DNA of 47,392 nt. Origin: a virus. Location of the stretch: the IMG/VR virus record IMGVR_UViG_3300037042_003620, positions 1 through 47,392 of that record; one strand, given 5' to 3'. Positions 7,019 through 42,785 of this stretch are shown in pieces. The translations under genes and the position numbers were made by a program. The number at the start of each line of letters is the position of its first letter. The first letter of the stretch is position 1. The notes beneath the pieces were generated by a model. That model was not told where the DNA came from. It saw nothing but the letters and a program-made list of their open reading frames with translations, and made no database searches.

Positions 7019-7315
7019 ATGGGCATCTTCGGTTGGGATCTTCCTCCGGGCGTGTCGAGCCGAGACATTGACGGCGGCGACGCCCCCTGCGATCTCTGCG
7101 GGGTTCATGTTGACGCCTGCGAGTGCCCCGAGTGCCCGACTTGCAGCACGACGGGCGACGTGGATTGCCTCAAGCACGGCATGACGCTGACCCCCGAGCA
7201 GATTGCAATCGGTTGGGAAAGCGTCGGGCGCGCGGCAATCGAAGAGGCGCGTTGGAACGAGTACGCCGAAGAAGTCGATTCGGCCCGCGATTTGGAGCGT
7301 GACTTGTCTTGCTAA
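7019..7315 (+). CDS. Small Cys-rich protein
   Basis: 98 residues with TAGGAG before the ATG and promoter P3 just upstream. Residues 23-50 hold a dense cysteine cluster (CDLCGVHVDACECPECPTC) typical of a zinc ribbon or knuckle. The C-terminal half is an acidic helix (EEVDSARDLERDLSC). Function unknown; an early regulator or inhibitor is plausible. Confidence 0.6.
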   Translation: MGIFGWDLPPGVSSRDIDGGDAPCDLCGVHVDACECPECPTCSTTGDVDCLKHGMTLTPEQIAIGWESVGRAAIEEARWNEYAEEVDSARDLERDLSC

Positions 7316-7382
7316 TGGGGGGAGTTTCTTCGCCCACTAGCGTAGTTTGATTGAACACCACCTGCTTTTGGAGTTTTTCACC

Positions 7383-7946
7383 ATGCCTACTTTCACCATT
7401 AACCCTTTCGCCCGCCGTCAGGTTGCCAATAGCCGCTTCTCGCACTTCGCGGGAACCGATCAAGACCTGTTGAATCGGGTCGCGGCGGCTTTCGAGTCGT
7501 TCGACGGCGATGCCTCTAAGGTCGTCGTCCTGCCCGTCCCCGCCGACGGTTTCTTCACGGGCCACGCGCTCGCGGAAGCGGGCATGAAGATCGAGGCTAA
7601 GTTCGAGTCCCGTCGTCAGGGTGAAGCCCCGCGATTCCACATGGGTCGCGTGGTCGAGGATTACGAGACGGCGAAGGTGCCCGCCGTCGCGGTCAGCATC
7701 ATCCTGTACCCGAGCACGATGCTTGCGCCGAAGGACAATAGCCTGCCCGCCGAGGCCGGAAACTTCGAGGTCGTGAGCATCAACGCTCGTCCGACCCTTG
7801 AAGAAGAGCCTATCGCGCCCGAGGCGTTGATTGCGAACCACTTGGGCGAGGATGGCGGGACGGACCACGGTTTGTCCGACGCCGAGTTTGTGGCGCGGCT
7901 CAAGGCGAGTCGGGCCTATCACACACGCTACATCGCGCTCGCCTGA
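7383..7946 (+). CDS. Hypothetical protein
   Basis: 187 residues from the ATG at 7383 (GGAG 9 bases upstream); an ORF extension to 7347 lacks a ribosome site. Begins MPTFTINPFARRQVANSRF and shows alternating strands and helices (KVVVLPVPADGFF, VPAVAVSIILYPSTM) with a helical end. No family recognised. Confidence 0.6.
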   Translation: MPTFTINPFARRQVANSRFSHFAGTDQDLLNRVAAAFESFDGDASKVVVLPVPADGFFTGHALAEAGMKIEAKFESRRQGEAPRFHMGRVVEDYETAKVPAVAVSIILYPSTMLAPKDNSLPAEAGNFEVVSINARPTLEEEPIAPEALIANHLGEDGGTDHGLSDAEFVARLKASRAYHTRYIALA

Positions 7947-7958
7947 AAGGACTTCCCG

Positions 7959-8498
7959 ATGGGACGCCTAAAAGACGAAGCCATTTACCGCGAAGATAAC
8001 CCAAAGGGTTTGGCCGAAGCCGAGGCTGCTTACGAACGTAGCCGTTCGCCCGAAGCGGTCGTCGTTGGGATGAACACTAAGGATTTGACCATATCGCTCG
8101 CGCCCTCACTTGAACCAGACGCCCTCGTGCAGACGTTCCGCATCACGGAAGATCAATTGCTCCATGCGCGGGATTGCCTGTTCAATCGAGTCGCGTTCGA
8201 AGCACATGGGGATCGGCTGATCGGCTTTCGATTGTTGTCGGACGCCGAGTGCGAGACTTGCTCGTTCGTCGAGGCTGAGTACGCCCGAGCCAATGATAGT
8301 GACTTGACCCGCGATGCGCTGGCGTTGCAGAACGCCGCGATCAAAGCCGACTTGGAAAGCCTGCGGTCGGCCATAAGCAACCTGCGTGTGCTGCGGACGT
8401 CCAGCGCGGATTCGCGTGACGGCGATTTTCGCGTGCATCTTTGCGAGCGTGAGTTTGACGCCCTAACGATCATGGCAAAGGCGGGCCGCGTCCAATAG
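7959..8498 (+). CDS. Hypothetical protein
   Basis: 179 residues, AAAGGA before the ATG. The N-terminus is charged (MGRLKDEAIYREDNPKG) and a helical region near 130-150 (LQNAAIKADLESLRSAI) may be a coiled coil. Lies between an unknown gene and the HAD phosphatase in the plus-strand early operon. Function unknown. Confidence 0.6.
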   Translation: MGRLKDEAIYREDNPKGLAEAEAAYERSRSPEAVVVGMNTKDLTISLAPSLEPDALVQTFRITEDQLLHARDCLFNRVAFEAHGDRLIGFRLLSDAECETCSFVEAEYARANDSDLTRDALALQNAAIKADLESLRSAISNLRVLRTSSADSRDGDFRVHLCEREFDALTIMAKAGRVQ

Positions 8499-8525
8499 TT
8501 AGCGCGCCTATACTAAGGTAAAGGC

Positions 8526-9089
8526 ATGAGCGACCGCCCCATCGTGTTTCTTGATCTCGATGAAACCCTGATTTCTTCGTTTTCACCCGTCGAATTAACC
8601 CAAGTCGAAAGGTTACTCGAAAAGGCGTGGACGAAGCCCCCGACGGAGTTCAATCTCAAGAACGTCGAGCGGAGTCAGATTCGCGTCAACCAGATCAAAG
8701 CCGCTTTCACGATTGACGACCTCATGGTCATCGTGAGGCCCGATGCTCAGGCTGCGATTGACTACTTGGGCACGTTCGCCGAGGTTCATATCTTCACGGC
8801 GGCGTCGATGGCCTATGCCGAAGCGATTGTCTCCGGCGTCGGCCTGAAGTTCAAGCCGGACGAAGGCCGGATTTACTCGCTCAGAGACGAGCCGGATATG
8901 TCATGGGCCGCTGGCAGACGTTGGGTTCTAATCGACGACACGCAAGCCTACGCCAAGATTCGCGCGCTGCGGGACTTGGACGTAGACGTGCGGGTGATCC
9001 TAGTAGACCCCTTGAATCTAGGGAGCCGCTGCGAGCCGCTTATGATTTACGCCCGCGAAGCCGCTCGCAGACTCGGCATCGCGTTCTAA
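8526..9089 (+). CDS. HAD-superfamily (FCP1/NIF-like) phosphatase
   Basis: 187 residues. Residues 7-15 (VFLDLDETL) are HAD motif I, with Asp10 as nucleophile and Asp12 as acid/base. Residues near 90 (HIFTAASMAYAEAIV) match motif II, and WVLIDD near 137 supplies the acidic motif. The DLDETL plus FTAA combination is typical of FCP1/NIF-type phosphatases, which remove phosphate from protein serines, though phage members may act on nucleotides or nucleic-acid ends. Last gene of the plus-strand early run; its end overlaps the convergent baseplate gene by 4 bases. Confidence 0.75.
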   Translation: MSDRPIVFLDLDETLISSFSPVELTQVERLLEKAWTKPPTEFNLKNVERSQIRVNQIKAAFTIDDLMVIVRPDAQAAIDYLGTFAEVHIFTAASMAYAEAIVSGVGLKFKPDEGRIYSLRDEPDMSWAAGRRWVLIDDTQAYAKIRALRDLDVDVRVILVDPLNLGSRCEPLMIYAREAARRLGIAF

Positions 9090-12000
9090 CGATCCTCGTC
9101 GTAGGTCAACGTCAGGTTGCCGATGATCGCGTACTCGGTCGGCCCTACGTCAATGTCCTTCGTACCACCGTCTTGCCCCACGACGTAAATCGTGGCGTAA
9201 GAGTACGAGGTCGGGGACACGCCAATTGGCAAAGAAATCAGGACGTGATTCGCCGTCAGGACAAGTCTGCGGGCTTGAATCGCCGTGGCGGTCACATAGC
9301 CCTGCGCGATGAGCGTGGCGTCATCCGAGTAGCCTACGATGGATCGGCCCTCGCCACCGATGATATAGGCACGGCCAACCATCACGCCGAGCGCATTTAG
9401 ACTCGCGGTGCTTTCGAGCAGGTCGAGCGCGATTTCGTTTTGGAACACGCCCCTGAAATCCGTCGTCTCGCCGCCACCATCGACCGTGGCCGCACTTAGC
9501 GGGTTCGTCAGGATGTAGACGCTCGCTGCATTGGTGGACAGGGACGACAAGACCACCGACTCCGTTGCCGTGTCGGTCGAAATGAGGTCCCATACAACCG
9601 TGCTGCCCTCCGAACGAACCATCTTCGTCAAAGGCACCACGACATAAGAAACGCCCACGGTTTGCTCGATGACGGAAATCACGTCCGATTGACGCACCGC
9701 GTTATCAAGCCGTAGCGAAGCGAAGAAGTTGTCGAGGTTCGTCCGCAAGGCTTGGTCCACGACGACGGGATCGCGCCCCTTTTGCAAGACCACCGTGGCC
9801 GAAAGGTCCAACGGCGCGGGGATTGCCTCTTTCACCAGAACGTCTGCGGTCGCGTGCTTGGTGTCGTCAATCGCGTTTTGCGCCAGCGACACAATCAGGT
9901 TCGTCGTGTAGGTGACCGTGAAGTTCTCGTCGTGCAGATAGTTGACCAACACCGTTGCGCCGGACGGAATCGCGCCCGTCTCCACTCGCGTAATCGAAAC
10001 AGCGGTCGTTTGCGTGCCGAGCGTAATCGTGAAGTCAGGCAAGCCCGAGGGGTCGTTCGGCCCCTTGTATTGAGTCAAGCCGTCCGCGCTGAACACTTCG
10101 ACCGTGAAGTAGTTAGCCCCCAAGTTGTCCAGAAACTCAGGGTATTGGCCGATCAGGACGTGCTGTTCGCCCGTGATCGTGACCGCATTACCAGATGCGC
10201 CGCCATTGATTTGCAGGTAGTCGCCCGAAAGAATCGACCGCCCATAGTCCAAAGGCGAGTTCGGATGATACAGGCCGTAGTTGGCCGGATCGAGGGTGCC
10301 CGCCACGGTGCCCACGACCGACGTGATTGACGCAACGGGCTGACGAGGCAAGACGAACTGCGTGCCCGCTTGCTTCCGATAGGAACCAAGCACCACGTCA
10401 TTCAAGTCCACCACGGGTTGCGCGATGGCCGTGTTGAGTTGGATCGTGTTGTATGAAAGAATCGTGACGCCCGTGAGGTCGAAAACCTCTCCGGTGGACA
10501 CATTCTTGAACTCGTAGCCCGCCACAGGCACGTCGAGCATTTCGACAATCGGGTTGATAGCCGAAAGCGTCGGGTCGACCGCCGTAAAAATCAGATTGAG
10601 CGGGTCACCGACGACCTCGAACTGCACGTCGTCGGCAATCTCGTAGGAGAAGGCGAACGTATCGGTAATCGTGGCGATGTTGCTCTCGCCCTGTACCCAA
10701 ACGTCTACCTTGCCGCCTCGGTGGACGCCGTTTTCATCCAAGTCTCGAAGCATGAGCGCATCGCCAGCGGCAATCACGTTGGCTTTAATGACGCCCGGCA
10801 CGTCGGCGGCGGTCTGCGTGTAGCCCTGAACCGTGCCGGAATCGACCGAAGCGAGTCGATTCTGCGCGCGTTCGATCAACGACAGATTCGACTCGGTGCC
10901 GGAACCGCCGAACATCGGGGCTGAGTTTGTGACGAGCAAACCGCCCGCGATTTGCGTGAGCACTTGGCGCATTTGCCCCGTGCCCACGTTGCCCGAAGCC
11001 CCTGCGCTGGTCGCCCGCACGGGCACGTTGACACGGTATCGGCCCGTGACGGGCTCGTAGTATGACGCCAACTGCGCGAAGTCGATGGACGCCGCTCGTG
11101 ACGTGACGAACTGAACCGAACCTGAGACTACGACCGTGCCCAATGGGATTTGGATCGTGAAGGTAGGGCGACGATTCGTGTAGAACGTCACCTCACCCTG
11201 CGCCTGTTGCCCCGCACGGCGAAGCACGCCGAAGTTACTCGCATAGGCGTCGAACGATGAGTCAATCAGGTTTTGTACGGCCCCATCCGTCGTCAGATAG
11301 AAAGCGGCCTTGATTGCCTGCTTGTAAGCACTCTGACTGACAGGGATCGACGTGCCCGTGCCCTGCGGATCGTCCACTTGCAGTAAGAGCGTCGGCGTGC
11401 GGGTCCGATACAAAAAGTCCATCAGGAACCGAAGCCGCTCGGCCTCGGACGAGAACGGATCGATTACCGTGTCCCGCAGCACGGACCCCGGCTCAACCTT
11501 GATCTGAGGGTTGGACCGATAGATCGACGTCACGAAACTTTCGACGATGGATTGCCGCGTCGCAAGCGGGAATGAACCAATCGCCGTGGTAATCGACAAC
11601 GGACGCGCCACGACTTCCTGAGATAGCGCGGACTCGTACTCTAGGTTTGCAGTAGCATTGTAATAGACCGCCAAGACCACATAGTAAAGCGGTGCTTCGG
11701 CTGGCAACGACGAGAAACTGCCGACGCGAATCGTCGGCGGGTCCGAAGTCGGGCCGTTGGCTCGCCCATGCTCGAAAGAGTAGATCGTGAACGTCCGCAC
11801 GCTATTGATCGTCGCGGACATACGGATATGCCGGACGGTCTCGGGAATCACGAAGCGCGTGTCTAAGTCGGCTTGCAGTAAATCCCGATTTTCGTCCTCT
11901 TGGCGAGCCAAGACTCGGAAATACTGAGGGTCCGACAGGGGCACGTCGTTCCCATCAACCGCGACGTTCGTATCGAGGTTGATTTCGCCGAAGGTCGCCG

Positions 12001-12523
12001 TTTCCTGCTGACCTGCGCCTTGCGTGATCATATTCAGGTTGATCTTCGTGTAGCCGCTCGCACCGCCACCAGATTCGGTGGAGGCGTAAAAGTTCATGCC
12101 ACGAAAACCAAGTGCCGCGCTCGGCTCGGCCTCGATGACCACCACCGCGTCTTTTTGCGTGACCCGCACATTGGTCGGGGCCGTCGCAATCACCACGTCC
12201 GCATCGCTGACCAACCGAATCGTCGCCGTTGCGGGAGGCGTTGCTACGCCAGCGGGGTTGATCGCCCTTACCGAAATCGTGTTCGCGCCGGATAGCAAAA
12301 TCAAGCCGTCCGGCTCATAAGCGGGATTCGGCACCGTGAAGATGCCGTCACCCCACAAAGCCAACGCCGGATCGGACGAATAGCCGGACCCATTGACGGA
12401 CACCTGAAAGTCAATGGCGTCGTCGGGCAGCGTGCCTTGAATGAATCGGCGCGCAAGTGTGGTGCTGAACGCGAGAGTTTCCCGCGCCACACCATCAGGT
12501 CCGGTTATCGTAACGAGCGGCAT
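9086..12523 (-). CDS. Baseplate J-like protein with Ig-like N-terminal region
   Basis: 1145 residues. Residues near 345-375 (PGSVLRDTVIDPFSSEAERL) and near 500 (VRATSAGASGNVGTGQ) match the core of baseplate J / gp47 proteins, and the region near 920-965 (NLDNFFASLRLDNAVRQSD) matches their C-terminal helical part. The N-terminal 300 residues look like tandem Ig or fibronectin-type strands (NTISVRAINPAGVATPPA), and a beta-rich insertion lies at about 600-880. It would build the baseplate wedge rim. Much longer than the usual 300-500 residues, so extra host-contact or scaffold roles are likely. Starts one base after the tandem duplication, using a TAATG stop/start. Confidence 0.8.
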   Translation of the reverse strand: MPLVTITGPDGVARETLAFSTTLARRFIQGTLPDDAIDFQVSVNGSGYSSDPALALWGDGIFTVPNPAYEPDGLILLSGANTISVRAINPAGVATPPATATIRLVSDADVVIATAPTNVRVTQKDAVVVIEAEPSAALGFRGMNFYASTESGGGASGYTKINLNMITQGAGQQETATFGEINLDTNVAVDGNDVPLSDPQYFRVLARQEDENRDLLQADLDTRFVIPETVRHIRMSATINSVRTFTIYSFEHGRANGPTSDPPTIRVGSFSSLPAEAPLYYVVLAVYYNATANLEYESALSQEVVARPLSITTAIGSFPLATRQSIVESFVTSIYRSNPQIKVEPGSVLRDTVIDPFSSEAERLRFLMDFLYRTRTPTLLLQVDDPQGTGTSIPVSQSAYKQAIKAAFYLTTDGAVQNLIDSSFDAYASNFGVLRRAGQQAQGEVTFYTNRRPTFTIQIPLGTVVVSGSVQFVTSRAASIDFAQLASYYEPVTGRYRVNVPVRATSAGASGNVGTGQMRQVLTQIAGGLLVTNSAPMFGGSGTESNLSLIERAQNRLASVDSGTVQGYTQTAADVPGVIKANVIAAGDALMLRDLDENGVHRGGKVDVWVQGESNIATITDTFAFSYEIADDVQFEVVGDPLNLIFTAVDPTLSAINPIVEMLDVPVAGYEFKNVSTGEVFDLTGVTILSYNTIQLNTAIAQPVVDLNDVVLGSYRKQAGTQFVLPRQPVASITSVVGTVAGTLDPANYGLYHPNSPLDYGRSILSGDYLQINGGASGNAVTITGEQHVLIGQYPEFLDNLGANYFTVEVFSADGLTQYKGPNDPSGLPDFTITLGTQTTAVSITRVETGAIPSGATVLVNYLHDENFTVTYTTNLIVSLAQNAIDDTKHATADVLVKEAIPAPLDLSATVVLQKGRDPVVVDQALRTNLDNFFASLRLDNAVRQSDVISVIEQTVGVSYVVVPLTKMVRSEGSTVVWDLISTDTATESVVLSSLSTNAASVYILTNPLSAATVDGGGETTDFRGVFQNEIALDLLESTASLNALGVMVGRAYIIGGEGRSIVGYSDDATLIAQGYVTATAIQARRLVLTANHVLISLPIGVSPTSYSYATIYVVGQDGGTKDIDVGPTEYAIIGNLTLTYDEDR

Positions 12524-33566: not shown

Positions 33567-34357
33567 GGTCCCTTCTTACCACCACCTAATACTACTTTGG
33601 CCCCCACCTTGATTACACGCTCGGGGACCGCCCACGGATCAGGTTGTTCCGGCTCCGGCTGCGCTTGACCCCCGCCAATCATAATGCCGCCGCTCGGCAT
33701 CCTCGTGTTCTGCGACGGCGGCAAAAAAGGAGCCGGACGTGAGTTCGCAACAGGCGCAACAGGAGCAACAGGAGCAATAGACTCAGGCGCACGCGAAAGT
33801 TTGTCCGCGATGTCCTGAATGTGCTTGCACGCCTTCTTGAAAGCGAACGCCTTACACGAGCACGTCCATTGGTTGTCTGACGTGCGCGTTACCTCATAGA
33901 GATTGTCCGTGTCCCCCTTCACGCTCCAACGATCCGCAGGCTCGGCAGGCTTGACGGGTTCAATAGGCTCGACGGGCTTGGAGGGTTCAACAGGCTCAGG
34001 GGGTTTAACGAAACCGGAAGGGGCAAGCCCAACGAGTGTGCGCGCCGCGTTTGTGACTTCAATCGGTGACGCCACGGACCAATCGCCCTTGCGCTCGCTA
34101 ATCTCCAACGCCAATGCCCGCTGAATCATGTCCTTGAAATCAGGCAGACTCGCGCCCATCTCTTCCGGCGCGAAGTTCGGATTTTTCAGTAGCGTTTCTT
34201 CCTGCGTCAATATGCGGGTCATCCAAAGTGACTGACCCGTGCGCGAGTTCTTGCAGCCCGAGTTCTGGCACGCGGCGCAAAACGTCTGCTTGAACTGTTC
34301 GGGCGGCATCCGTTGGTGATCGCCCGAGTAGCATTGATTGAAAAGGTCAACCAACAT
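33563..34357 (-). CDS. SWIM zinc-finger protein
   Basis: 264 residues. Around residues 155-180 the pattern QWTCSCKAFAFKKACKHI gives CxCx(n)CxH, the SWIM zinc finger used for DNA or protein binding. An N-terminal FCAACQNSGCKNSRTG may bind a second metal. Between them is a linker of PVEP/PVKP repeats, and after the finger a Pro/Gly-rich tail. Overlaps the thymidine kinase end by 11 bases. SWIM proteins often serve recombination or replication; role here unknown. Confidence 0.65.
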   Translation of the reverse strand: MLVDLFNQCYSGDHQRMPPEQFKQTFCAACQNSGCKNSRTGQSLWMTRILTQEETLLKNPNFAPEEMGASLPDFKDMIQRALALEISERKGDWSVASPIEVTNAARTLVGLAPSGFVKPPEPVEPSKPVEPIEPVKPAEPADRWSVKGDTDNLYEVTRTSDNQWTCSCKAFAFKKACKHIQDIADKLSRAPESIAPVAPVAPVANSRPAPFLPPSQNTRMPSGGIMIGGGQAQPEPEQPDPWAVPERVIKVGAKVVLGGGKKGP

Positions 34358-34874
34358 GATGTGACCAACAGGTTCGACAACGAGCCTCGTAGACGCCGTG
34401 CGAACCGACCTCGATCAAATCGGAACTGCGGGTCAGTTTGTAGGTTCGATTCGCCCGCGCGCCGCATTTGCACTTGGCCGTGATCTTCTTCACGCTATCG
34501 GCAATCGCCATGAGCGCAGGCATCGGCCCAAACGGTTGACCCTTGTAGTCTAGGTCGAGTCCGGAGCAGATTACACGCACGCCTCGATCCGCAAGCACGT
34601 TGACCACAAGAATCAGGGATTCCGGCAAAAACTGACATTCATCGATCCCGACGACCTTCGCGCCTTTGGACCGTTCCAGAATCACGTCCAAGCCGGATGA
34701 AGAAGCGGGAATGGTAATCGCGGGGAACGTCACGCCGTCGTGAGTCGCTAAATGCGTGTCGTGGTATCTAGCATCAATGCTCGGCTTGAACGCAACCGCC
34801 TCCATGCCGCTCAATCGGCGCACGAGTTCGGACGTCTTGCCCGCATACATACACCCTGCAATCACTTCAATCAT
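34347..34874 (-). CDS. tdk: Thymidine kinase
   Basis: 175 residues, normal for type II thymidine kinase. GCMYAGKTS (7-15) is the P-loop, IDECQF (77-82) holds the catalytic Glu79, and Cys135, Cys137, Cys166 and Cys169 are the structural zinc ligands. The lasso region lies between them (YKLTRSSDLIEVG, 145-157). It phosphorylates thymidine using ATP and feeds phage DNA synthesis. No other nucleotide-metabolism gene is present in this window. Confidence 0.9.
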   Translation of the reverse strand: MIEVIAGCMYAGKTSELVRRLSGMEAVAFKPSIDARYHDTHLATHDGVTFPAITIPASSSGLDVILERSKGAKVVGIDECQFLPESLILVVNVLADRGVRVICSGLDLDYKGQPFGPMPALMAIADSVKKITAKCKCGARANRTYKLTRSSDLIEVGSHGVYEARCRTCWSHHVG

Positions 34875-35537: not shown

Positions 35538-35861
35538 CTAACGAGGCAAAGCAACCTGTTGAAAGAATCTGGCGGCTGAACCAAAAGACCTATCGGACCC
35601 GCTACTGACGTAGTTCGTCACTTCACCGTTGTTATCGAACGGACGAGCACCATCCGTCCTGTTCCAAGTGCCACCCATACAATCAGGAAACCGCTTTACC
35701 GTGGTCGCATCACCGTCGTGAACGAGATTTGCAGGCCAACGCCCTGTGCGCGATTCTGAGCCGATCCTGCATTGATCGATGTTCAACGCCCCGCAGCCGT
35801 GCTGCAAGGCATTAGCCGCGACCGTGCCGATCAAAGGCTTTCGCAGGACGTGGACGATCAT
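35538..35861 (-). CDS. Methyltransferase specificity cassette A
   Basis: 107 residues, the shortest of seven related small genes. It opens MIVHVLRKPLIGTVAANAL, has the central GRWPANLVHDG block and closes FGSAARFFQQV; between these are two variable stretches, the first only about 7 residues here. In intact phage and bacterial beta-class DNA methyltransferases these blocks lie between the DPPY half and the TVKP / DPFxGSG half, where target recognition resides. This cassette directly follows a DPPY half-gene with an ATGA overlap, the natural order of the intact enzyme. Likely role: target-recognition subunit. Confidence 0.65.
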   Translation of the reverse strand: MIVHVLRKPLIGTVAANALQHGCGALNIDQCRIGSESRTGRWPANLVHDGDATTVKRFPDCMGGTWNRTDGARPFDNNGEVTNYVSSGSDRSFGSAARFFQQVALPR

Positions 35862-36526
35862 TGGGGCTTTCTTGCAACGACGATGGGTTCCCACGCAGGC
35901 TTCAAAGCCGTGCCGTAACCGGACCATTGGCGAGCGGCGTCGGTGGCGGGGGCTGTGAGTTCGTGGTCGAACTCCCCCAGTTTGCGAGACATCCCCACAT
36001 GGATCACAACCCCATCTTCGTCGCGTCCGTGTCCACGATACTTGTCGAACTTCGGTAGTTTGACGGAACCGATTACCTCACGCCCCACTCCCGCTTGTTT
36101 GTCGAGTTGCTTGCTCACGTCCATCGACTTAGGGAATCCAGAGCCGTAGGTCCAAGCGTGAACTTCGAAATCAACGAAGCCGACCTCACGCATGGCCTTC
36201 GCCATACGGTGATAGGTCCGTGTGCCTGAGAACGCTTTGATGACCCCGTTGGGCTTTAGAATGCGGAAGCACTCGCCCCAAAGTTCGGGGGAAAAGGCGA
36301 TTCCGGTCGCATCCCACTTCATGCCCATAAAGCCGCCGCCGTTGCCCGTGCCGATCCGTGAACGCCCATGAGGGCTTTCAAGGTTGAGGCTGGCAAGCCC
36401 TGAGCCACCTTTTTTGTTAGTGGTCAGTTCATACGGAGGGTCTGAGATTACGGCGTCAATAGAGCCTGTCTCTAGGTCTTTGAGTTTGACGAGGCTATCA
36501 CCGAGAATCAGTCTTACGGTGTTCAT
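35858..36526 (-). CDS. DNA methyltransferase catalytic half, copy b
   Basis: 222 residues from the ATG at 36526 (ATGA overlap). DAVISDPPYEL at 24-34 is catalytic motif IV of N6-adenine/N4-cytosine beta-class methyltransferases, followed by FRILKPNGVIKAFSG and WTYGSGFPKSMDVSKQ. It ends WEPIVVARKPQ, where an intact enzyme would continue into the recognition region. The SAM-binding motif is missing and would come from the 37152-38987 product. Nearly identical to copy a up to residue 140; then a different segment, longer by 12 residues (KLPKFDKYRGHGRDEDGV and so on), before the shared end. Confidence 0.8.
   Translation of the reverse strand: MNTVRLILGDSLVKLKDLETGSIDAVISDPPYELTTNKKGGSGLASLNLESPHGRSRIGTGNGGGFMGMKWDATGIAFSPELWGECFRILKPNGVIKAFSGTRTYHRMAKAMREVGFVDFEVHAWTYGSGFPKSMDVSKQLDKQAGVGREVIGSVKLPKFDKYRGHGRDEDGVVIHVGMSRKLGEFDHELTAPATDAARQWSGYGTALKPAWEPIVVARKPQ
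36119..36526. repeat. About 400-bp direct repeat, copy b
   Basis: Near-identical at the base level to 36748-37155, offset 629 bp. It covers residues 1-136 of the catalytic half. The high identity suggests recent duplication or ongoing gene conversion. Confidence 0.85.
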
Positions 36527-37155
36527 TGTGGCTTTCGTGCGACGACGATTGGTTCCCAAGCGGGCTTCAGGGCCGTGCCGTAACCGGACCATTGTTTAGC
36601 GGCTTCAGTAGCAGGTGCGGTGATATTGGCTTTGTGACCGGATTGGGCATACGTCGAAACAGGTGGGTTAGGACGCCGTGCGTTATATGGCGACTCCCCC
36701 AATACTTCGCGTTCCGCACCCACCGACTTGTCGATCTGCTTGCTCACGTCCATCGACTTAGGGAACCCCGAGCCGTAGGTCCAAGCGTGGACTTCAAAGT
36801 CAACGAAGCCGACCTCACGCATGGCCTTCGCCATACGATGATAGGTCCGTGTGCCTGAGAACGCTTTAATGACCCCGTTGGGTTTTAGGACGCGGAAGCA
36901 CTCGCCCCAAAGTTCGGGTGAAAAGGCGATTCCGGTCGCATCCCACTTCATGCCCATAAAGCCGCCGCCGTTGCCCGTGCCGATCCGTGAACGCCCATGA
37001 GGGCTTTCAAGGTTGAGGCTGGCAAGCCCTGAGCCACCTTTTTTGTTAGTGGTCAGTTCATACGGAGGGTCTGAGATTACGGCGTCAACAGAGCCTGATT
37101 CTAGGTCTTTGAGTTTGACGAGGCTATCGCCGAGAATCAACCTTACGGTGTTCAT
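36523..37155 (-). CDS. DNA methyltransferase catalytic half, copy a
   Basis: 210 residues. DPPY at 29-32 is the catalytic motif; 1-140 and 179-210 match copy b almost exactly, while 141-178 (SVGAEREVLGESPYNARRP then PVSTYAQSGHKAN) is unrelated to copy b. So this half too has a replaceable segment. Starts in an ATGA overlap with the SAM-binding half gene. The enzyme it forms would methylate adenine N6 or cytosine N4 in a specific DNA sequence, probably for protection from host nucleases. Confidence 0.8.
   Translation of the reverse strand: MNTVRLILGDSLVKLKDLESGSVDAVISDPPYELTTNKKGGSGLASLNLESPHGRSRIGTGNGGGFMGMKWDATGIAFSPELWGECFRVLKPNGVIKAFSGTRTYHRMAKAMREVGFVDFEVHAWTYGSGFPKSMDVSKQIDKSVGAEREVLGESPYNARRPNPPVSTYAQSGHKANITAPATEAAKQWSGYGTALKPAWEPIVVARKPQ
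36748..37155. repeat. About 400-bp direct repeat, copy a
   Basis: Partner of 36119-36526. Together they could recombine and delete or amplify one catalytic half-gene. Confidence 0.85.
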
Positions 37156-38987
37156 TCGTCCAGCCCGAAGAAATCGTCAAAGTCCACGTCACGCTGCTTC
37201 GGCGTCGTATCGCAATCAGACGTTATTATCGCGCGACCTTCGAGGATGCTGCGCTCGCTATTCCAATGCCGCACTCGGGCGTCCGCAATCGGCAAGTAGT
37301 CAGGCGTAATCTCGATGCCCGTGAAGTTCATGTGGGCGTTCAAGCAAGCAATACCCGTCGTGCCAGAACCCAAAAAAGGATCTACGACGTGCGCGCCTTC
37401 GGGCAGGTCGTTTAGGCACCATTCCATGATTTCAACAGGCTTCACGGTGTTGTGAGACATACCCACAGCCGTTTGAAACGTCGGATTCCCCGAAACCGTC
37501 AAGTTCCAAACGTCACCCACATAAGGAACCGTGTTCACCGATTGGATGTAGCGCAGGACGTATCGAACGCCCTCATATTCCAAAAAAGTAGGTCGGCTAG
37601 GCTTGCGGACACGGCTCGGGTCTTGGTTACGGCTATACAACTGTATCTGGTATGAAGGGAGCGTTTGCTTAAACTCGCGTGCGCCAATCGAGCCTGCTTT
37701 CGCATCAAAACGAAACAGGTTTGCCTTGTAGCCGACGCTCTCGGCGAGATACGCAATCGAGGAAGCCAAATCAGGAGAGACGGTCTTGGCTTGGATGTAA
37801 CTCCGCACCACGCCACCGTCACCCGCAAGATAGCCCTCCAAAAAGGCTTTGCGGTTACTCAGGGGCAATCCCCAAAACATAGGATGCAGGAACTTCGTGG
37901 AAGCACCCTTACCAATGAGAGTGATGAAGTCTGCGCCCACATCACGGTCGAACGCGATTACCTGCCAAGCACGGCTGTTCTTCTTGTCGTAGACGCTAAC
38001 GCTCGCACCACGCCCCTCAAAATAGTCTTTGATGCGGCTTATCAAATGCTTATTTCGCTCGCCAACCGTGAAAGAGGGATATCCACCCTCTTTACCGTGA
38101 CTTGCCTTATGAATCACACCTTCAGCGGCGTAGAAACCACAGAAAAACCAAAAATCATCCGGACGGTCTAACTCGGGGCTAGACTTAGGTTCACTCAAGA
38201 TGGGCGTGAGCGTGTAGTCACCTTTCTTGAGATCCTTTGCCTCTACCCATTCCATCGAACCATTGACGAGCACTTTGCCTTTGGTGCGCGTAGGCCGCAG
38301 GACCAGAAAAGGATGATTGTCGCTGGCAAGAGTCGTGTAGTTTGTGCCCGCGACCGCAATCTCAAACAAATCGGGACTCGTGTAAGGGTGGTTTGACACG
38401 CAATCAACGGCATTGAAACTACCGTCAGCGGTGTAAACCCGATCACCCGCAACGATTTGATTGATGGGGAGATAACCCTTGTCGGTCAGCACCAATGCTT
38501 CAGGATGCAAACACGGATGAAAGTTAGACCGTGAAGAGTTTGAACGATTACGCGGATTGTCAGAGCCAGGCGCGTCGGGGTCACGATCTTCTTCCCAACG
38601 CCGTTCTTCCAAATCATGCGTGCCAGCCTCGCGTTCGGCAGTCGCGGCCTTCGCCGTGTATGAGAACTTACTCTCAGACGTTGCGACGAAAATCGCGTCA
38701 CGAACCTCGAAGCCCGAGTCCTCGGCCACGCAAACGCAATCGGACCCCGTGGGGTCCACGTCGTCCGCAGAAGCGATGAGCAAATGACCGCCCGGCTTCA
38801 ACACCCGCAGGGCTTCAACCTGCCAAGCGTCACCAACCCCCCGCGTGACGAGCATCCCATGAGCCGTAGAGTCATCATGGGCTTGCCAATCAAATGCAAG
38901 CGGGTCGTCTACTCGCAGGATTTTTAAGTCCGGCACCGGAGTAGAAATCAGTTTCGTGAGATAATCCCAAAGATTGATAGCAGTCAT
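37152..38987 (-). CDS. DNA methyltransferase SAM-binding half, interrupted by an intein
   Basis: 611 residues. Extein residues 1-158 include ALRVLKPGGHLLIA (59-72), as in methyltransferases, but no DPPY; SKFSYTAKAATAEREAG (106-122) is the usual sequence right after the point where the cassettes end (SAARFF). Residues 514-611 begin TVKPVEIMEW and carry VVDPFLGSGTTGIAC (motif I, SAM binding). A 355-residue intein (159-513) splits the conserved HPTVKP sequence. After splicing the mature protein is about 256 residues. It would pair with a DPPY half and a cassette to give a complete enzyme. Starts by ATGA overlap after cassette B. Confidence 0.8.
   Translation of the reverse strand: MTAINLWDYLTKLISTPVPDLKILRVDDPLAFDWQAHDDSTAHGMLVTRGVGDAWQVEALRVLKPGGHLLIASADDVDPTGSDCVCVAEDSGFEVRDAIFVATSESKFSYTAKAATAEREAGTHDLEERRWEEDRDPDAPGSDNPRNRSNSSRSNFHPCLHPEALVLTDKGYLPINQIVAGDRVYTADGSFNAVDCVSNHPYTSPDLFEIAVAGTNYTTLASDNHPFLVLRPTRTKGKVLVNGSMEWVEAKDLKKGDYTLTPILSEPKSSPELDRPDDFWFFCGFYAAEGVIHKASHGKEGGYPSFTVGERNKHLISRIKDYFEGRGASVSVYDKKNSRAWQVIAFDRDVGADFITLIGKGASTKFLHPMFWGLPLSNRKAFLEGYLAGDGGVVRSYIQAKTVSPDLASSIAYLAESVGYKANLFRFDAKAGSIGAREFKQTLPSYQIQLYSRNQDPSRVRKPSRPTFLEYEGVRYVLRYIQSVNTVPYVGDVWNLTVSGNPTFQTAVGMSHNTVKPVEIMEWCLNDLPEGAHVVDPFLGSGTTGIACLNAHMNFTGIEITPDYLPIADARVRHWNSERSILEGRAIITSDCDTTPKQRDVDFDDFFGLDE
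37449..38513 (-). mobile_element. Intein with LAGLIDADG homing endonuclease
   Basis: Residues 159-513 of the host protein. Cys1 opens block A (CLHPEALVLTDKGYLPINQ); block B holds Thr219 and His225 (TLASDNHP); two LAGLIDADG helices are FCGFYAAEG (282-290) and FLEGYLAGDG (382-391); blocks F/G are VGDVWNLTVSG and the final SHN, followed by Thr as +1 nucleophile. All residues needed for splicing are visible. The insertion point HP/TVKP is one of the most conserved spots of beta-class methyltransferases, typical for inteins. Acidic residues in both endonuclease helices suggest it may still cut. Confidence 0.9.
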
Positions 38988-39430
38988 TCGATTGTCACCT
39001 GTTGAAAGTATCGTGCGGCTGAACCGGAGTCGCCGTAGCCAACCTCCTGCCCAAACACGGGTTGATTAAGCCCGTTGCCGTTGCCGTATATAATACCATT
39101 ACCTTTGCCTCTCGTGCCTGACGACACGCCTACTGTCAGCGGAAACGTCTCTACGACCTCGTCGCTTCCGTCGTGTACGAGATTTGCGGGCCAGCGTCCT
39201 GCGGTCATCACGTCACTCGCGCCCGAGAGGTCCGAGGAGTTCTTCCATGAGTTCGCCATCGAACCCCCATGAACCTTGATGGCTTCGACCCTCGCCTTGT
39301 GACGCTCGAAGTCCGCGCTCGAAGCATGGGCTACTCGGCACTCGTCGATGTTCAACGCCCCGCAGCCATGCTGCAAGGCATTAGCCGCGACCGTTCCGAT
39401 CAGCGGTTTTCGCAGGACGTGAACGATCAC
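38984..39430 (-). CDS. Methyltransferase specificity cassette B
   Basis: 148 residues, GTG start. Shares the N-terminal block, GRWPANLVHDGSDEVV and end SGSAARYFQQV with the other cassettes. Variable part 1 is FERHKARVEAIKVHGGSMA and neighbours; variable part 2 (PLTVGVSSGTRGKGNG, then NGLNQPVFGQEVGYG) is shared with cassette C but with no other. Ends by ATGA overlap at the start of the SAM-binding half, the order of an intact enzyme. Likely a target-recognition subunit. Confidence 0.65.
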   Translation of the reverse strand: MIVHVLRKPLIGTVAANALQHGCGALNIDECRVAHASSADFERHKARVEAIKVHGGSMANSWKNSSDLSGASDVMTAGRWPANLVHDGSDEVVETFPLTVGVSSGTRGKGNGIIYGNGNGLNQPVFGQEVGYGDSGSAARYFQQVTIE

Positions 39431-39861
39431 TTGATTTCCACCTGTTGAAAGTATCGTGCTGTCGAACCGGAGTCGCCGTAGCCAACCTCCTGCCCAAACA
39501 CGGGTTGATTAAGCCCGTTGCCGTATACAATACGATTACCTTTGCGTCTTTCACCTGACGACACGCCTACTGTCAGCGGGAACAGGCCCACGGCCTCGTC
39601 GCTTCCGTCGTGGACGAGATTCGCGGGCCAGCGTCCTTTGCTGCAATCCCAACCAGCAGGCAAATCTCGTACTGCACCGCCTACATAACCGTCCTCGGCG
39701 AAACCGCGTAAACCACCGCTTCTCGCACTCAACTTGTCTGGATCTTCGTCGGGAGACAAACTAACCCTGCACTCGTCGATGTTCAATGCCCCGCAGCCGT
39801 GCTGCAAGGCATTAGCCGCGACCGTTCCGACCAAAGGCTTTCGCAGGACGTGGACGATCAC
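39427..39861 (-). CDS. Methyltransferase specificity cassette C (mosaic)
   Basis: 144 residues from a GTG at 39861 in a GTGA overlap. Its first variable part (SLSPDEDPDKLSARSGGL then GAVRDLPAGWDCSKG) is that of cassette F; its second (PLTVGVSSGERRKGN then LNQPVFGQEVGYG) is that of cassette B. The join falls in the conserved GRWPANLVHDGSDE block. This shows the two variable parts are exchangeable modules. Confidence 0.65.
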   Translation of the reverse strand: MIVHVLRKPLVGTVAANALQHGCGALNIDECRVSLSPDEDPDKLSARSGGLRGFAEDGYVGGAVRDLPAGWDCSKGRWPANLVHDGSDEAVGLFPLTVGVSSGERRKGNRIVYGNGLNQPVFGQEVGYGDSGSTARYFQQVEIK

Positions 39862-40292
39862 TTGATTTCCACCTGTTGAAAGAACCGTGCGGCTGAACCG
39901 GAGTCCCCTATTGTTTCGAAACATCGTGGATGTCGTTTACCAAAAATACTGAATCCACCTTTGACTTCTTGATTCATTTTACCACTTGATGTCTCTGGGA
40001 ACAAAGACAAGACTTCTTCACTTCCGTCGTGGACGAGATTAGCGGGCCAACGTCCCCCCTTGGGCTGCCAGTTTACTTGGTCCCCTGCCTTGCCCCCGCG
40101 AGTTCTCCCCCAACCGGGTCCGGTGCCTTCGTAGGTCTGCGGGTAGTCGGACTTGCGCGTGGCTACCACAGAAGGCACGTCCTCTGCCGAACCCACGCGG
40201 CACCCGTCGATGTTCAACGCCCCGCAGCCGTGCTGCAAGGCATTAGCCGCGACCGTGCCGATCAGCGGCTTTCGCAGGACGTGAATGATCAT
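39858..40292 (-). CDS. Methyltransferase specificity cassette D
   Basis: 144 residues, ATG start. Conserved blocks as in the other cassettes (MIIHVLRKPLIGTV, GRWPANLVHDGSEEVL, SGSAARFFQQVEIK). Variable part 1 (VPSVVATRKSDYPQTYEG) and part 2 (KMNQEVKGGFSIFGKRHP) match no other cassette, implying its own sequence specificity. Overlaps both neighbours by 4 bases. Confidence 0.65.
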   Translation of the reverse strand: MIIHVLRKPLIGTVAANALQHGCGALNIDGCRVGSAEDVPSVVATRKSDYPQTYEGTGPGWGRTRGGKAGDQVNWQPKGGRWPANLVHDGSEEVLSLFPETSSGKMNQEVKGGFSIFGKRHPRCFETIGDSGSAARFFQQVEIK

Positions 40293-40726
40293 TCGATTGT
40301 CACTAGTTGAAAGTATCGTGCTGTCGAACCGGAGTCCCCACCACCCATCCCGCTGCCACGGTGAGTATCGAAAATCGGGCCGTCTTTGCCTTTCCCGTCG
40401 CTATTTCTTGGAGCGTTGAACCATCGGTTGCTCTCAGGAAACGTCTCTACGACCTCATCGCTGCCGTCGTGGACGAGATTCGCGGGCCAACGTCCTGCGG
40501 AATGTTGTTGTGTATCGAAAGCACTTCTTTCCCGATTGTTTTGCACGCCGCCAGCGAGTGATCCACTCTTCGCGGTCAGATTGCCACCGGGAAATGCACT
40601 CGCCTTATCCGCTTCCGACACGAAGCCGATCCTGCATTGGTCGATGTTCAATGCCCCGCAGCCGTGCTGCAAGGCGTTAGCCGCGACCGTGCCGATTAGC
40701 GGCTTTCGCAGGACGTGAATGATCAT
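40289..40726 (-). CDS. Methyltransferase specificity cassette E
   Basis: 145 residues, ATG start. Conserved blocks present, with FQLV in place of FQQV at the end. Variable part 1 (SEADKASAFPGGNLTAKSG) and part 2 (ESNRWFNAPRNSDGKGKDG) are unique in the window. Coupled on both sides. Confidence 0.65.
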   Translation of the reverse strand: MIIHVLRKPLIGTVAANALQHGCGALNIDQCRIGFVSEADKASAFPGGNLTAKSGSLAGGVQNNRERSAFDTQQHSAGRWPANLVHDGSDEVVETFPESNRWFNAPRNSDGKGKDGPIFDTHRGSGMGGGDSGSTARYFQLVTIE

Positions 40727-41175
40727 TCGATTGTCACTTGTTGGAAGAATCGGGAGGCTGAACCGGAGTCGCTGTAAGTGCTACCCCCTAAGAAACCGCC
40801 ACCTCCAAAAGAACCCCCGCCATATTGCCGATTCTCAATGGCATAGACTTCGGCACCGTAGTTTTTCTTCCATCCATTTCCCGCTTCAGGGAAAATGGCG
40901 ATTACTTCGTCGCTTCCGTCGTGGACGAGATTTGCGGGCCAACGACCTTTGCTGCAATCCCAACCAGCAGGCAAATCTCGTACTGCACCGTATGTAAAAC
41001 GGCTACGATTGAGCCGATCAGGTAAACCACCGCTTCTCGCACTCAACTTGTCTGGATCTTCATCGGAAGACAAACTAACCCTGCATTGGTCGATGTTCAA
41101 TGCCCCGCAGCCGTGCTGCAAGGCATTAGCCGCGACCGTTCCGACCAAAGGCTTTCGCAGGACGTGGACGATCAC
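40723..41175 (-). CDS. Methyltransferase specificity cassette F
   Basis: 150 residues, GTG start. Variable part 1 (SLSSDEDPDKLSARSGGL ... GAVRDLPAGWDCSKG) is shared with cassette C apart from a short inner stretch; part 2 (EAGNGWKKNYGAEVYAIE then a Gly-rich run) is unique. Ends SGSASRFFQQVTIE. The likely donor or relative of the first half of mosaic cassette C. Confidence 0.65.
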   Translation of the reverse strand: MIVHVLRKPLVGTVAANALQHGCGALNIDQCRVSLSSDEDPDKLSARSGGLPDRLNRSRFTYGAVRDLPAGWDCSKGRWPANLVHDGSDEVIAIFPEAGNGWKKNYGAEVYAIENRQYGGGSFGGGGFLGGSTYSDSGSASRFFQQVTIE

Positions 41176-41780
41176 TTGATTGCCACTTGTTGAAAGAATC
41201 GGGAGGCACCGCCTGAATCGCCAAGACCGCCAGCATTTGCGGCATTACGGTCTAACGCATACTTGCCGTATGCGAGTCTTCCTAGTGCTCCCCGAGACTT
41301 TTCCCCTGCCCCACCCGTAGACGTAGTAACACCGCTTTGACGATCTAGGGCGAGTATCGGGCAATCCTCGTGGCAGGCCCAATCGGACACCGTTTCGTTT
41401 TTTAGGCTGATTTCTTGCAGATTATTTTGTCCGGCGTGTCCTGAAGTAGATATGCCGCCTTTTGATCTTGCCCGTGGCGAGTGACCGTTTGATTTCACGG
41501 TCTTACTTCCTACGTTGAGGCATTCGGGCAAGTGCTTTAGTACGAAATTCGCAGGCCAGCGACCTGCGGGCTGCTTGAATGAGATACCAGCGTCACGCTT
41601 ATATCTCCAATTCTCAGAACCATCGTGACGTTCGGAGCCGTTTTCTGCGTAAGCCCCACCATTTAGATTGTCCGACGTGACGATCCTGCATTGGTCGATG
41701 TTCAACGCCCCGCAGCCGTGCTGCAAGGCGTTAGCCGCGACCGTGCCGATCAGCGGCTTTCGCAGGACGTGGACGATCAT
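41172..41780 (-). CDS. Methyltransferase specificity cassette G (long type)
   Basis: 202 residues from the ATG at 41780. First cassette of the array and the longest. The central block reads GRWPANFVLKHLPEC instead of GRWPANLVHDG and is followed by VSDWACHEDCPILALDRQSG and GGASRFFQQVAIK. Intact methyltransferases occur in both flavours (VHDGSDEV and VLxHxPxC / LDxQSG), so this cassette represents a second recognition-domain lineage in the same array. The Cys/His set (CHEDC) may bind a metal. It starts one base after the previous gene's stop. Confidence 0.65.
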   Translation of the reverse strand: MIVHVLRKPLIGTVAANALQHGCGALNIDQCRIVTSDNLNGGAYAENGSERHDGSENWRYKRDAGISFKQPAGRWPANFVLKHLPECLNVGSKTVKSNGHSPRARSKGGISTSGHAGQNNLQEISLKNETVSDWACHEDCPILALDRQSGVTTSTGGAGEKSRGALGRLAYGKYALDRNAANAGGLGDSGGASRFFQQVAIK

Positions 41781-41781
41781 C

Positions 41782-42321
41782 TCACTTGCCCTTGCGCCGT
41801 ACCGTAGCCTCGCCCTTCCGCAACTTGATGAGCAACGCCTTCGTTTCGTCATTCAGGGCCATATTGCCCGTCAACGTCGCAGCACCCGTGTCCTTGTCGA
41901 TCAATCGAGAAGTCAGGCCGATTGCCTTGGGCATGATCGACTTGACCAACTTGGGGTCCATGTGCCGAATGGCGATGTCCCAAATCATGTCGAGGTACAC
42001 GCCCGCCGCGATTTGCAAGGGCTGACCGTTATACTCGGCAGACTGACGCTCTTTGTAGAGCAATCGACCGTCCTCAGTACGCAGTTCTAGGTCGAAATGC
42101 GTAACGGGCATCGGCACTTCAGGACGGTCGAACTCAAGCCGGAAAGCGACGCTCACCCGCAAGTCGCCAAAGGTCACGCGGGGACGATTGACGTGCCCCC
42201 AACCGACGATGTTGACTCTTAGGGAACCAGACTCGATCAGGCGGGCGATAACCTCCTGCTCGACTTCCGACATCGGCGTATATAGGCTCTTGTTATTGCC
42301 GCCGCCGAACGCATTTGCCAT
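41782..42321 (-). CDS. Hypothetical protein
   Basis: 179 residues from the ATG at 42321 (GGGGTG 6 bases upstream). A beta-rich centre (RPRVTFGDLRVSVAFRLEF, HFDLELRTEDGRLLY) and a helical second half (IWDIAIRHMDPKLVKSIM) ending in a very basic VRRKGK tail. It stops one base before methyltransferase cassette G and so is co-transcribed with the array. No family recognised. Confidence 0.55.
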   Translation of the reverse strand: MANAFGGGNNKSLYTPMSEVEQEVIARLIESGSLRVNIVGWGHVNRPRVTFGDLRVSVAFRLEFDRPEVPMPVTHFDLELRTEDGRLLYKERQSAEYNGQPLQIAAGVYLDMIWDIAIRHMDPKLVKSIMPKAIGLTSRLIDKDTGAATLTGNMALNDETKALLIKLRKGEATVRRKGK

Positions 42322-42344: not shown

Positions 42345-42785
42345 TTATTCAGCGAACCTTACCCCACAAGCCCTAATGCGGTCCCCCTTGCCGATGGCCT
42401 CATAGAACAGCACGTCGTCACCTATCACGGGCACTCGTTGGTCCGCGATATCGGCACGGTGCAGGAAGCAAACGCGGGCTTGCTCGTCCTCGATAAAGCC
42501 CCAACCTGTCCGAATGTCGAAAGACCGGATGCGGCCCAAGACCTCGACGGGCTGCGAAACACGACGCACCATCGAGGCTTTCGGGCTTTGCCCTTCTTCG
42601 ATGGTGTCCGAACGCAGCATGATTTCAACAGGTTCGCCGGGCAGAGGCGGGGCTTTGTCCTCCGCATTTAGCCGAACGAAAACCGACACATGGAAAAACA
42701 CACGCTCACGCCCGTCCCGAGACTTGCAGAAGCCGAAGAATCGAATGGGGTCGTAAATATCTACGACCATGACGGGTGCGGGCAT
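42345..42785 (-). CDS. Tandem cold-shock-domain protein
   Basis: 146 residues. The second half (VLGRIRSFDIRTGWGFIED, RVCFLHRADI, then GDDVLFYEAIGKGDR) is a clear cold-shock OB-fold with the RNP1-like GWGFI strand. The first half (VDIYDPIRFFGFCKS, VFFHVSVF) is a diverged second copy. Such proteins bind single-stranded RNA or DNA and melt RNA structure. May act as an RNA chaperone during late expression. Confidence 0.7.
   Translation of the reverse strand: MPAPVMVVDIYDPIRFFGFCKSRDGRERVFFHVSVFVRLNAEDKAPPLPGEPVEIMLRSDTIEEGQSPKASMVRRVSQPVEVLGRIRSFDIRTGWGFIEDEQARVCFLHRADIADQRVPVIGDDVLFYEAIGKGDRIRACGVRFAE

Follow-up and report, generated by a model that had tools for sequence, protein, structure and literature searches.

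The window analyzed in the present study is a 47,392-nucleotide stretch of viral DNA (positions 1 to 47,392 of the IMG/VR record IMGVR_UViG_3300037042_003620), in which ten minus-strand genes at 35538-41780 correspond to one beta-class N6-adenine-type methyltransferase in three types of parts: two catalytic halves with the motif DPPY (catA and catB), seven target-recognition cassettes (cas1 to cas7), and one half that carries the S-adenosylmethionine (SAM)-binding motifs, referred to here as the C-half (Table 1). An earlier note on this DNA, made by a model from the letters alone, had described ten consecutive genes joined by 4-base overlaps, and all ten open reading frames were found where it had placed them. 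They are arranged 5' to 3' in the order cas1-cas2-cas3-cas4-cas5-cas6-C-half-catA-catB-cas7, each of the nine junctions is an overlap of exactly 4 bases (ATGA or GTGA), and the gene upstream of cas1 stops at 41782, one base ahead of it.

Division of methyltransferase motifs among the parts

Within the window, DPPY was confined to catA and catB, HN-TVKP and DPFLGSG were confined to the C-half, and the cassettes had none of these motifs. Against the Pfam profile N6_N4_Mtase (PF01555), catA and catB covered positions 1-90 and the C-half positions 100-219; catA fell just under the profile cutoff (26.6 versus 26.7 bits), catB was also under it, and the C-half was over it. The two halves covered 9-130 and 171-255 of the 260 positions of the PADLOC Type II methyltransferase model PDLC03371, and models of this type were the top PADLOC matches of the split parts. 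No cassette had a match in Pfam or PADLOC, and no Type I HsdM or HsdS model appeared among the PADLOC matches listed. The cassettes matched positions 2-97 and the C-half positions 143-217 of PHROG 3008, and therefore the cassette sits immediately ahead of the C-half part in related phage proteins.

In L014 and L017, which are intact homologues, one chain holds the catalytic part, a segment running from RKP through GRWPAN to ARFF, and then HPTVKP and motif I, and the cassette corresponds to the gap between the two halves of these enzymes that is filled by the RKP...GRWPAN...ARFF segment. The order that is the hallmark of PF01555, namely, motif IV (DPPY), the recognition region, motif X, and motif I, was found in the parts taken together, but in no single chain, and the catalytic and SAM motifs that this class holds in one polypeptide are on different polypeptides here. 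Judged by their motifs, the split parts belong to the beta-class amino-methyltransferases, yet depart from the single-chain feature of that class.

The junctions between parts had been claimed to fall where an intact protein would continue. The strands at the edges match the intact order, but the cuts overlap instead of being clean: the RKP strand is present both at the ends of the catalytic halves and at the starts of the cassettes, and the ARFF/KFSY strand is duplicated, being found in the cassettes and in the C-half. The description of the two catalytic halves as carrying DPPY only was correct for the motif, but missed the variation between them; catA and catB are 87% identical and differ in an inner stretch after FPKSMDVSKQ. 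Given this stretch, variation may come from more than the cassettes.

All seven cassettes share an N-terminal block of 33 amino acids (aa), referred to here as the N-block (85-100% identical in the window), as well as GRWPAN and an ARFFQQV-like end. Their differences lie in two inner stretches, V1 (42-46 aa; 39 in cas1 and 6 in cas7) and V2 (34-43 aa; 99 in cas1), and this architecture had been described correctly.

The C-half had been regarded as carrying only the TVKP and DPFLGSG half. Both motifs are present, but the gene also encodes a 355-aa intein and a decayed catalytic half. The intein occupies residues 159-513 (Pfam LAGLIDADG_3, E=1.4e-8; Hint_2, E=1.8e-5; also Intein_splicing), and the features expected of a LAGLIDADG intein were all found, i.e., splicing blocks with Cys1 and a terminal His-Asn, homing endonuclease motifs, and a precise empty site in a relative. 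The close relative L006 has this empty site, with an uninterrupted FHPTVKP (the insertion point lying between HP and TVKP), and an intein is located at the same motif X site in L009 and in the distant L044. Residues 1-104 are a decayed catalytic half, as detected by hhalign against intact enzymes (probability 98.3%, E=2e-14, 43 columns). A candidate second decayed motif X at the N terminus of the C-half (YFxxMITPP), which spans 14 columns only, is suggestive.

Table 1. Parts of the methyltransferase array and features within them, in window coordinates
Feature	Position	Strand	Details
cas1, recognition cassette, 202 aa	41172-41780	-	V1 41565-41681 (SDNLNGGAY type), long V2 41214-41510
cas2, recognition cassette, 150 aa	40723-41175	-	V1 40948-41076, V2 40765-40893
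cas3, recognition cassette, 145 aa	40289-40726	-	V1 40496-40627, V2 40331-40441
cas4, recognition cassette, 144 aa	39858-40292	-	V1 40056-40193, V2 39900-40001
cas5, recognition cassette, 144 aa	39427-39861	-	V1 39637-39762, V2 39469-39582
cas6, recognition cassette, 148 aa	38984-39430	-	V1 39200-39331, V2 39026-39145
C-half (hub), 611-aa precursor, about 256 aa without intein	37152-38987	-	motif X HPTVKP and motif I DPFLGSG
Decayed catalytic-half copy, N terminus of C-half, without DPPY	38676-38987	-	hhalign
LAGLIDADG intein, 355 aa, Cys1 to His-Asn/Thr+1, inside motif X	37449-38513	-	Pfam and empty site
Motif X/motif I part of C-half (TVKP...DPFLGSGTTG)	37155-37448	-	
catA, catalytic half, 210 aa, DPPY, end ...GTALKPAWEPIVVARKP	36523-37155	-	Pfam N6_N4_Mtase; PHROG 67, 6025
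catB, catalytic half, 222 aa, DPPY	35858-36526	-	Pfam N6_N4_Mtase
cas7, recognition cassette, 107 aa	35538-35861	-	V1 only 6 aa (35745-35762), V2 35583-35690

Distribution, selection, and module exchange

The earlier note had described the array for one phage, but the parts recur widely, in a family with one core in common. Four relatives were found by a protein-level scan, and the search for arrays of short cassette genes that the note had suggested was successful: a DNA pattern consisting of a start codon and the cassette N-block had 36 matches, spread over 33 contigs of IMG/VR; some of these contigs measure 168-376 kb, and several are jumbo-phage sized. Genes on the cassette-bearing contigs were classified with profiles from 39 intact homologues; several contigs are near-copies, and the distinct set comprised 20 C-halves, 31 full-length catalytic halves, and 51 cassettes. 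In this set, DPPY was present in 31/31 catalytic halves and motif I in 0/31, motif I was present in 20/20 C-halves and DPPY in 0/20, and neither motif was found in any cassette (0/51). Because the catalytic motif and the SAM motif are never on one chain, the activity of any lone chain should not be expected, and at least a catalytic half and a C-half should be needed together.

Twenty-one loci were judged to be complete and were tallied by hand; at loci other than the window, copy counts cover only the contig portions examined. Each of the 21 had exactly one C-half, 1-4 catalytic halves, and 1-7 cassettes, such that the extra copies beyond one amounted to 8 for the catalytic half, 22 for the cassette, and 0 for the C-half. 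If extra copies were distributed randomly over the three types, the chance of zero extra C-halves would be approximately 5e-6, a value that treats related loci as if they were independent. Array content differs between the same flanking genes among L236, L238, and L239, and likewise among the window, L006, and L009, and the three-part layout is kept in relatives in which the N-terminal part of the C-half is only 37% identical. A natural fusion of a cassette and a C-half is present in L039. In trees, the split catalytic halves formed one clade (100/100, one misfiled C-half fragment aside), as did the split C-halves (100/100, on a short alignment), and this topology fits a single origin of the split parts from intact phage enzymes.

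The cassette-start pattern had no match in the genomes of 84,980 prokaryote species. The best 80 matches of a C-half scan of prokaryote genomes mostly concerned the common motif X/I part, and the eight longer matches that were opened proved to be ordinary methyltransferases of one chain; DPPY was present in seven of them and an IPY variant in the eighth. Among the INPHARED phage matches inspected, which were intact enzymes or unannotated huge phages, there was no closely matching split locus. The huge phage LR756508.1 (L215, 484 kb) carries four tandem methyltransferase genes at 7167-12494, one of which encodes a 617-aa DPPY enzyme of the active type with an intein and without a recognition region. 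Another encodes a protein of 332 aa that lacks DPPY, has a recognition region, and has motif I in a degenerate form (DPFLSTGSIG); the remaining two are intact. This set looks like a possible evolutionary intermediate, in which recognition would already be supplied in trans.

Ratios of non-synonymous to synonymous substitution rates (dN/dS) were computed between the window and its relatives L006 and L009, with the C-half segments one or two codons off at the intein edges, which was without effect on the result. The C-half scored 0.06 and its decayed catalytic domain 0.043 (both against L006), the intein scored 0.042 (against L009), cas1 0.088, and the catalytic halves 0.085-0.15; these values are comparable to those of two flanking genes (0.05-0.08). 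In the cassette N-blocks, 4-42% of synonymous sites differed versus 0-8% of non-synonymous sites, and because of this synonymous excess and the recurrence of the layout on 33 other contigs, a chance origin is excluded. By these estimates, the array parts are under purifying selection and are not debris. The earlier note had itself raised the outcome that the genes are decaying debris of a duplicated ordinary methyltransferase, which would account for the repeated partial copies, the tiny V1 of cas7, the truncation of one L006 cassette, and an L044 catalytic half that may be broken. Selection and conservation rule this out in the main: the close relatives L006 and L009 are also split, dN/dS is low for most parts, the one-hub rule is strict, the split parts form 100/100 clades, and the layout persists in the relatives with only 37% identity mentioned above. 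We regard debris as the least probable of the alternatives considered here.

Regarding the cassettes, cas2 and cas5 are 74% identical in V1 and 34% in V2, while cas5 and cas6 are 89% identical in V2 and 19% in V1, and cas5 is a mosaic of a cas2-like V1 and a cas6-like V2. Among the 32 cassettes in which both modules were measurable, V1 and V2 similarity was uncorrelated (Spearman rho 0.03 over 496 pairs, which are not independent); 26 pairs shared V1 only, 38 shared V2 only, many of which involve one short-V2 cassette, and 5 shared both. By these measures, the cassettes are mosaics in which V1 and V2 reassort independently. The V modules also resemble intact enzymes (cas6 V2 is 52% identical to L119 and cas3 V1 50% to L117). 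As for relatives of the window, cas1 has an 86% identical orthologue in L006, and cas7 V2 is 78% identical to the truncated L006 cassette and 64% to L009.

The mosaic nature of the cassettes and the turnover of array content among relatives would also be in keeping with a silent archive, in which a single cassette, such as that adjacent to the C-half, is in use while the rest are recombination donors, with specificity shifting over generations. However, the cassettes all have start and stop codons of their own, overlap uniformly by ATGA or GTGA, and are complete at the C terminus; purifying selection acts on the N-blocks; and the loci L009, L020, and L042, each with one cassette and one catalytic half, are complete without donors. 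Inverted repeats marking an invertible switch were also not found; invertible or shufflon-type switching was rejected, the best candidate repeat being 26 nt at 77%. We consider a silent archive to be distinctly unlikely.

Cassettes and catalytic halves of other forms were observed in relatives. Half-cassettes of approximately 103-107 aa with V1 and almost no V2 (L038:3710-4033, L033:7950-8270, L018:5554-5865, L027:4052-4369, and L236:4428-4748) are the counterpart of cas7 in the window, which has V2 and almost no V1, and such half-cassettes might act in pairs. L028:2143-2655 (+) is a hybrid gene, a cassette with almost no V1, the C terminus of which is swapped for a catalytic-half end (WDGWGTALKPAWEPVCIGVKK). 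The catalytic half at L027:1639-3405 (-) is broken after YG by an insert of approximately 400 aa (start CLCEDTEILTDKGW, end FVTGN), which is apparently an intein in the YGSGFPKS loop, and a similar insert occupies this position in L215. The tree also contained a second class of catalytic halves (GVKVLGKGWDN...SSGMPAGNFDLAKG), which is deeply separated from the common class but shares arrays with it; its members are at L007:5851-6438 and 7648-8238, and also in L030, L031, and L039. L007:8235-8696 (+) is a deoxycytidylate deaminase-like gene that lies within the array and separates the last catalytic half from the C-half, and L006:206-973 (+), in the close relative of the window phage, encodes a hexapeptide-repeat-like protein with short repeats of the VYGNAKVYGDA type.

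In the window, the array is followed closely downstream by a thymidine kinase gene (34347-34874, -; Pfam TK, E=7e-41), and a gene upstream of it (42345-42785, -) encodes a protein that matches a cold-shock domain. The window makes up the entire IMG/VR record and contains baseplate genes, and therefore the virus is a tailed phage, probably a myovirus.

A putative enzyme assembled in trans

Taken together, these genes are suggested to encode a multi-specificity methyltransferase assembled in trans from one hub, catalytic halves, and cassettes, which probably protects the phage against host restriction. We assign a probability of roughly 0.7 to this reading, which draws on sequence comparisons. 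The catalytic half would contribute motif IV (DPPY), the single C-half, once its intein is spliced out, would serve as the common hub and contribute the SAM pocket (motifs X and I), and one cassette would contribute the target-recognition region that intact enzymes hold between the halves; the methyltransferase would work only with these three separately translated parts joined. The proposal of the earlier note that the parts assemble from separate chains agrees with the placement of the motifs on different chains in all loci examined and with the purifying selection described above, while physical assembly is what we infer from them. Its further proposal that the cassettes set specificity is consistent with modules that reassort and resemble the intact recognition region, and a change of cassette would then change the target. 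New specificities may arise through recombination at the shared blocks (N-block, GRWPAN, and ARFF), and also through cassette gain and loss and swaps of V1 and V2. The ATGA overlaps suggest translational coupling, by which the parts could be expressed simultaneously.

Since one hub is accompanied by several catalytic and recognition parts, combinatorial assembly is suggested, and with two catalytic halves and seven cassettes for its one hub, the phage can probably form at most 14 enzymes at once with differing targets. In the furthest-reaching version, a SAM-binding pseudoenzyme hub would accept any catalytic half and any cassette, with up to 14 simultaneous specificities, in a virus-restricted family of single origin that evolves by module shuffling. 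This extended proposal is tentative, and we place it slightly below even odds.

The cassettes may instead be separate DNA-binding or inhibitor proteins of recognition-region origin that stay apart from the methyltransferase, a view with which the absence of Pfam matches and a mostly disordered AlphaFold model of one cassette would be compatible. On the other hand, cassettes are always beside catalytic halves and a C-half in complete loci, a cassette is fused to the C-half in L039, and the strands by which the halves of intact enzymes are connected are present at the cassette edges, all of which make separate proteins very improbable.

The trans-assembled enzyme would help the phage by shielding its DNA from host restriction enzymes of many kinds, and such restriction evasion is the most likely benefit, by analogy with the multispecific phage 5-methylcytosine (m5C) enzymes described below. 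An active multi-specific enzyme might also have another purpose; its marks on the phage DNA might direct packaging, time replication, or protect against a nuclease that the phage itself encodes. Orphan phage methyltransferases have regulatory roles, which counts in favor of such a purpose, as does the fact that no host restriction system could be linked to the window phage. However, repeated cassette gain and module exchange point to diversifying selection on the target, which would be needless for a fixed internal role, and we consider a purpose other than restriction evasion to be unlikely.

Several points weigh against the proposed trans-assembled enzyme. The decayed catalytic domain is kept on the hub, and if this domain packs at the SAM pocket, it is difficult to see how a catalytic half supplied in trans reaches that pocket. 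The cassette cas7 is nearly without V1, and some cassettes evolve faster, with a dN/dS of 0.29 between cas3 and its L006 counterpart; since cas3 V1 is 89% identical to that of one L006 cassette, most of this difference should lie in V2. The count of seven cassettes comes from one metagenome assembly of repeated DNA. Shine-Dalgarno sites at the ten array starts showed no enrichment over background, and any co-expression of the cassettes would therefore rest on translational coupling; a Shine-Dalgarno sequence encoded by the conserved cassette end (CAACAGGTG) was rejected, with some starts looking good and the ten jointly being no better than background. AlphaFold models were weak for the L020 C-half (predicted local distance difference test [pLDDT] 65.5, predicted template modeling score [pTM] 0.50) and for the L039 fusion (pLDDT 58.9, the cassette region being mostly below 50). 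In Foldseek searches, beta-class methyltransferases were nearest to the C-half (best E=3e-6), but with template modeling scores of 0.25-0.29.

Comparison with known systems

If the trans-assembled enzyme is real, phages have converted a methyltransferase of one chain into a kit with many recognition parts for a common core, and this would represent an antibody-like broadening of protection against host restriction at a low coding cost. The cassettes would then be a natural set of small, separable recognition parts for amino-methyltransferase engineering and a direct route to learning which short segments set the target sequence, and the decayed catalytic domain of the SAM half would add a new example of a pseudoenzyme that is retained as a structural partner. 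To our knowledge, no system has been described in which three gene types divide among them motif IV, the recognition region, and motif I of one amino-methyltransferase, with the hub present once and its partners in several copies. The earlier note had also known of none, and no description of the three-gene-type layout was found in the open-access literature, subscription papers and preprints being largely outside this coverage.

Intact phage beta-class N6-adenine methyltransferases (PHROG 67, many Mycobacterium phage "DNA methylase" genes, and L014 and L017) share the motifs and the GRWPAN/SAARFF blocks of the split parts, in the same order of motif IV, recognition region, motif X, and motif I. 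They are one polypeptide with one recognition region, whereas the split system has three gene types, two of which are multiplied, and a decayed catalytic domain on its SAM half.

Fragments of M.SssI complement each other in vivo, overlaps are tolerated, and complementation works best with a C-terminal fragment whose start lies between motif VIII and the target recognition domain (TRD) (PMC3404938). Inactive and even overlapping fragments rejoin into an active enzyme in vivo, as the phage parts may also do. In contrast to the phage system, split M.SssI is an engineered m5C enzyme in two fragments with no alternative recognition parts.

In H. pylori, a Type I HsdM is used with two alternative specificity subunits (PMC3936762). 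Type I enzymes resemble the split system in having a separate specificity subunit with two recognition modules, which is exchangeable on a common modification core. However, HsdM is a complete catalytic chain and HsdS holds two full TRDs, whereas catalysis is divided over two chains in the split system, the cassettes of which are just 107-202 aa and unrelated by a profile search; a complete HsdM with a two-TRD HsdS was not found among the PADLOC matches listed.

Multispecific m5C methyltransferases of Bacillus temperate phages (SPbeta and its relatives; Trautner et al., as cited in PMC12707154) use one core with several TRDs against many restriction systems. They resemble the split system in that one phage core serves several recognition domains, and differ from it in belonging to the m5C class and in holding all recognition domains in a single polypeptide, whereas the split system has the amino-methyltransferase motif DPPY and its recognition regions on separate genes.

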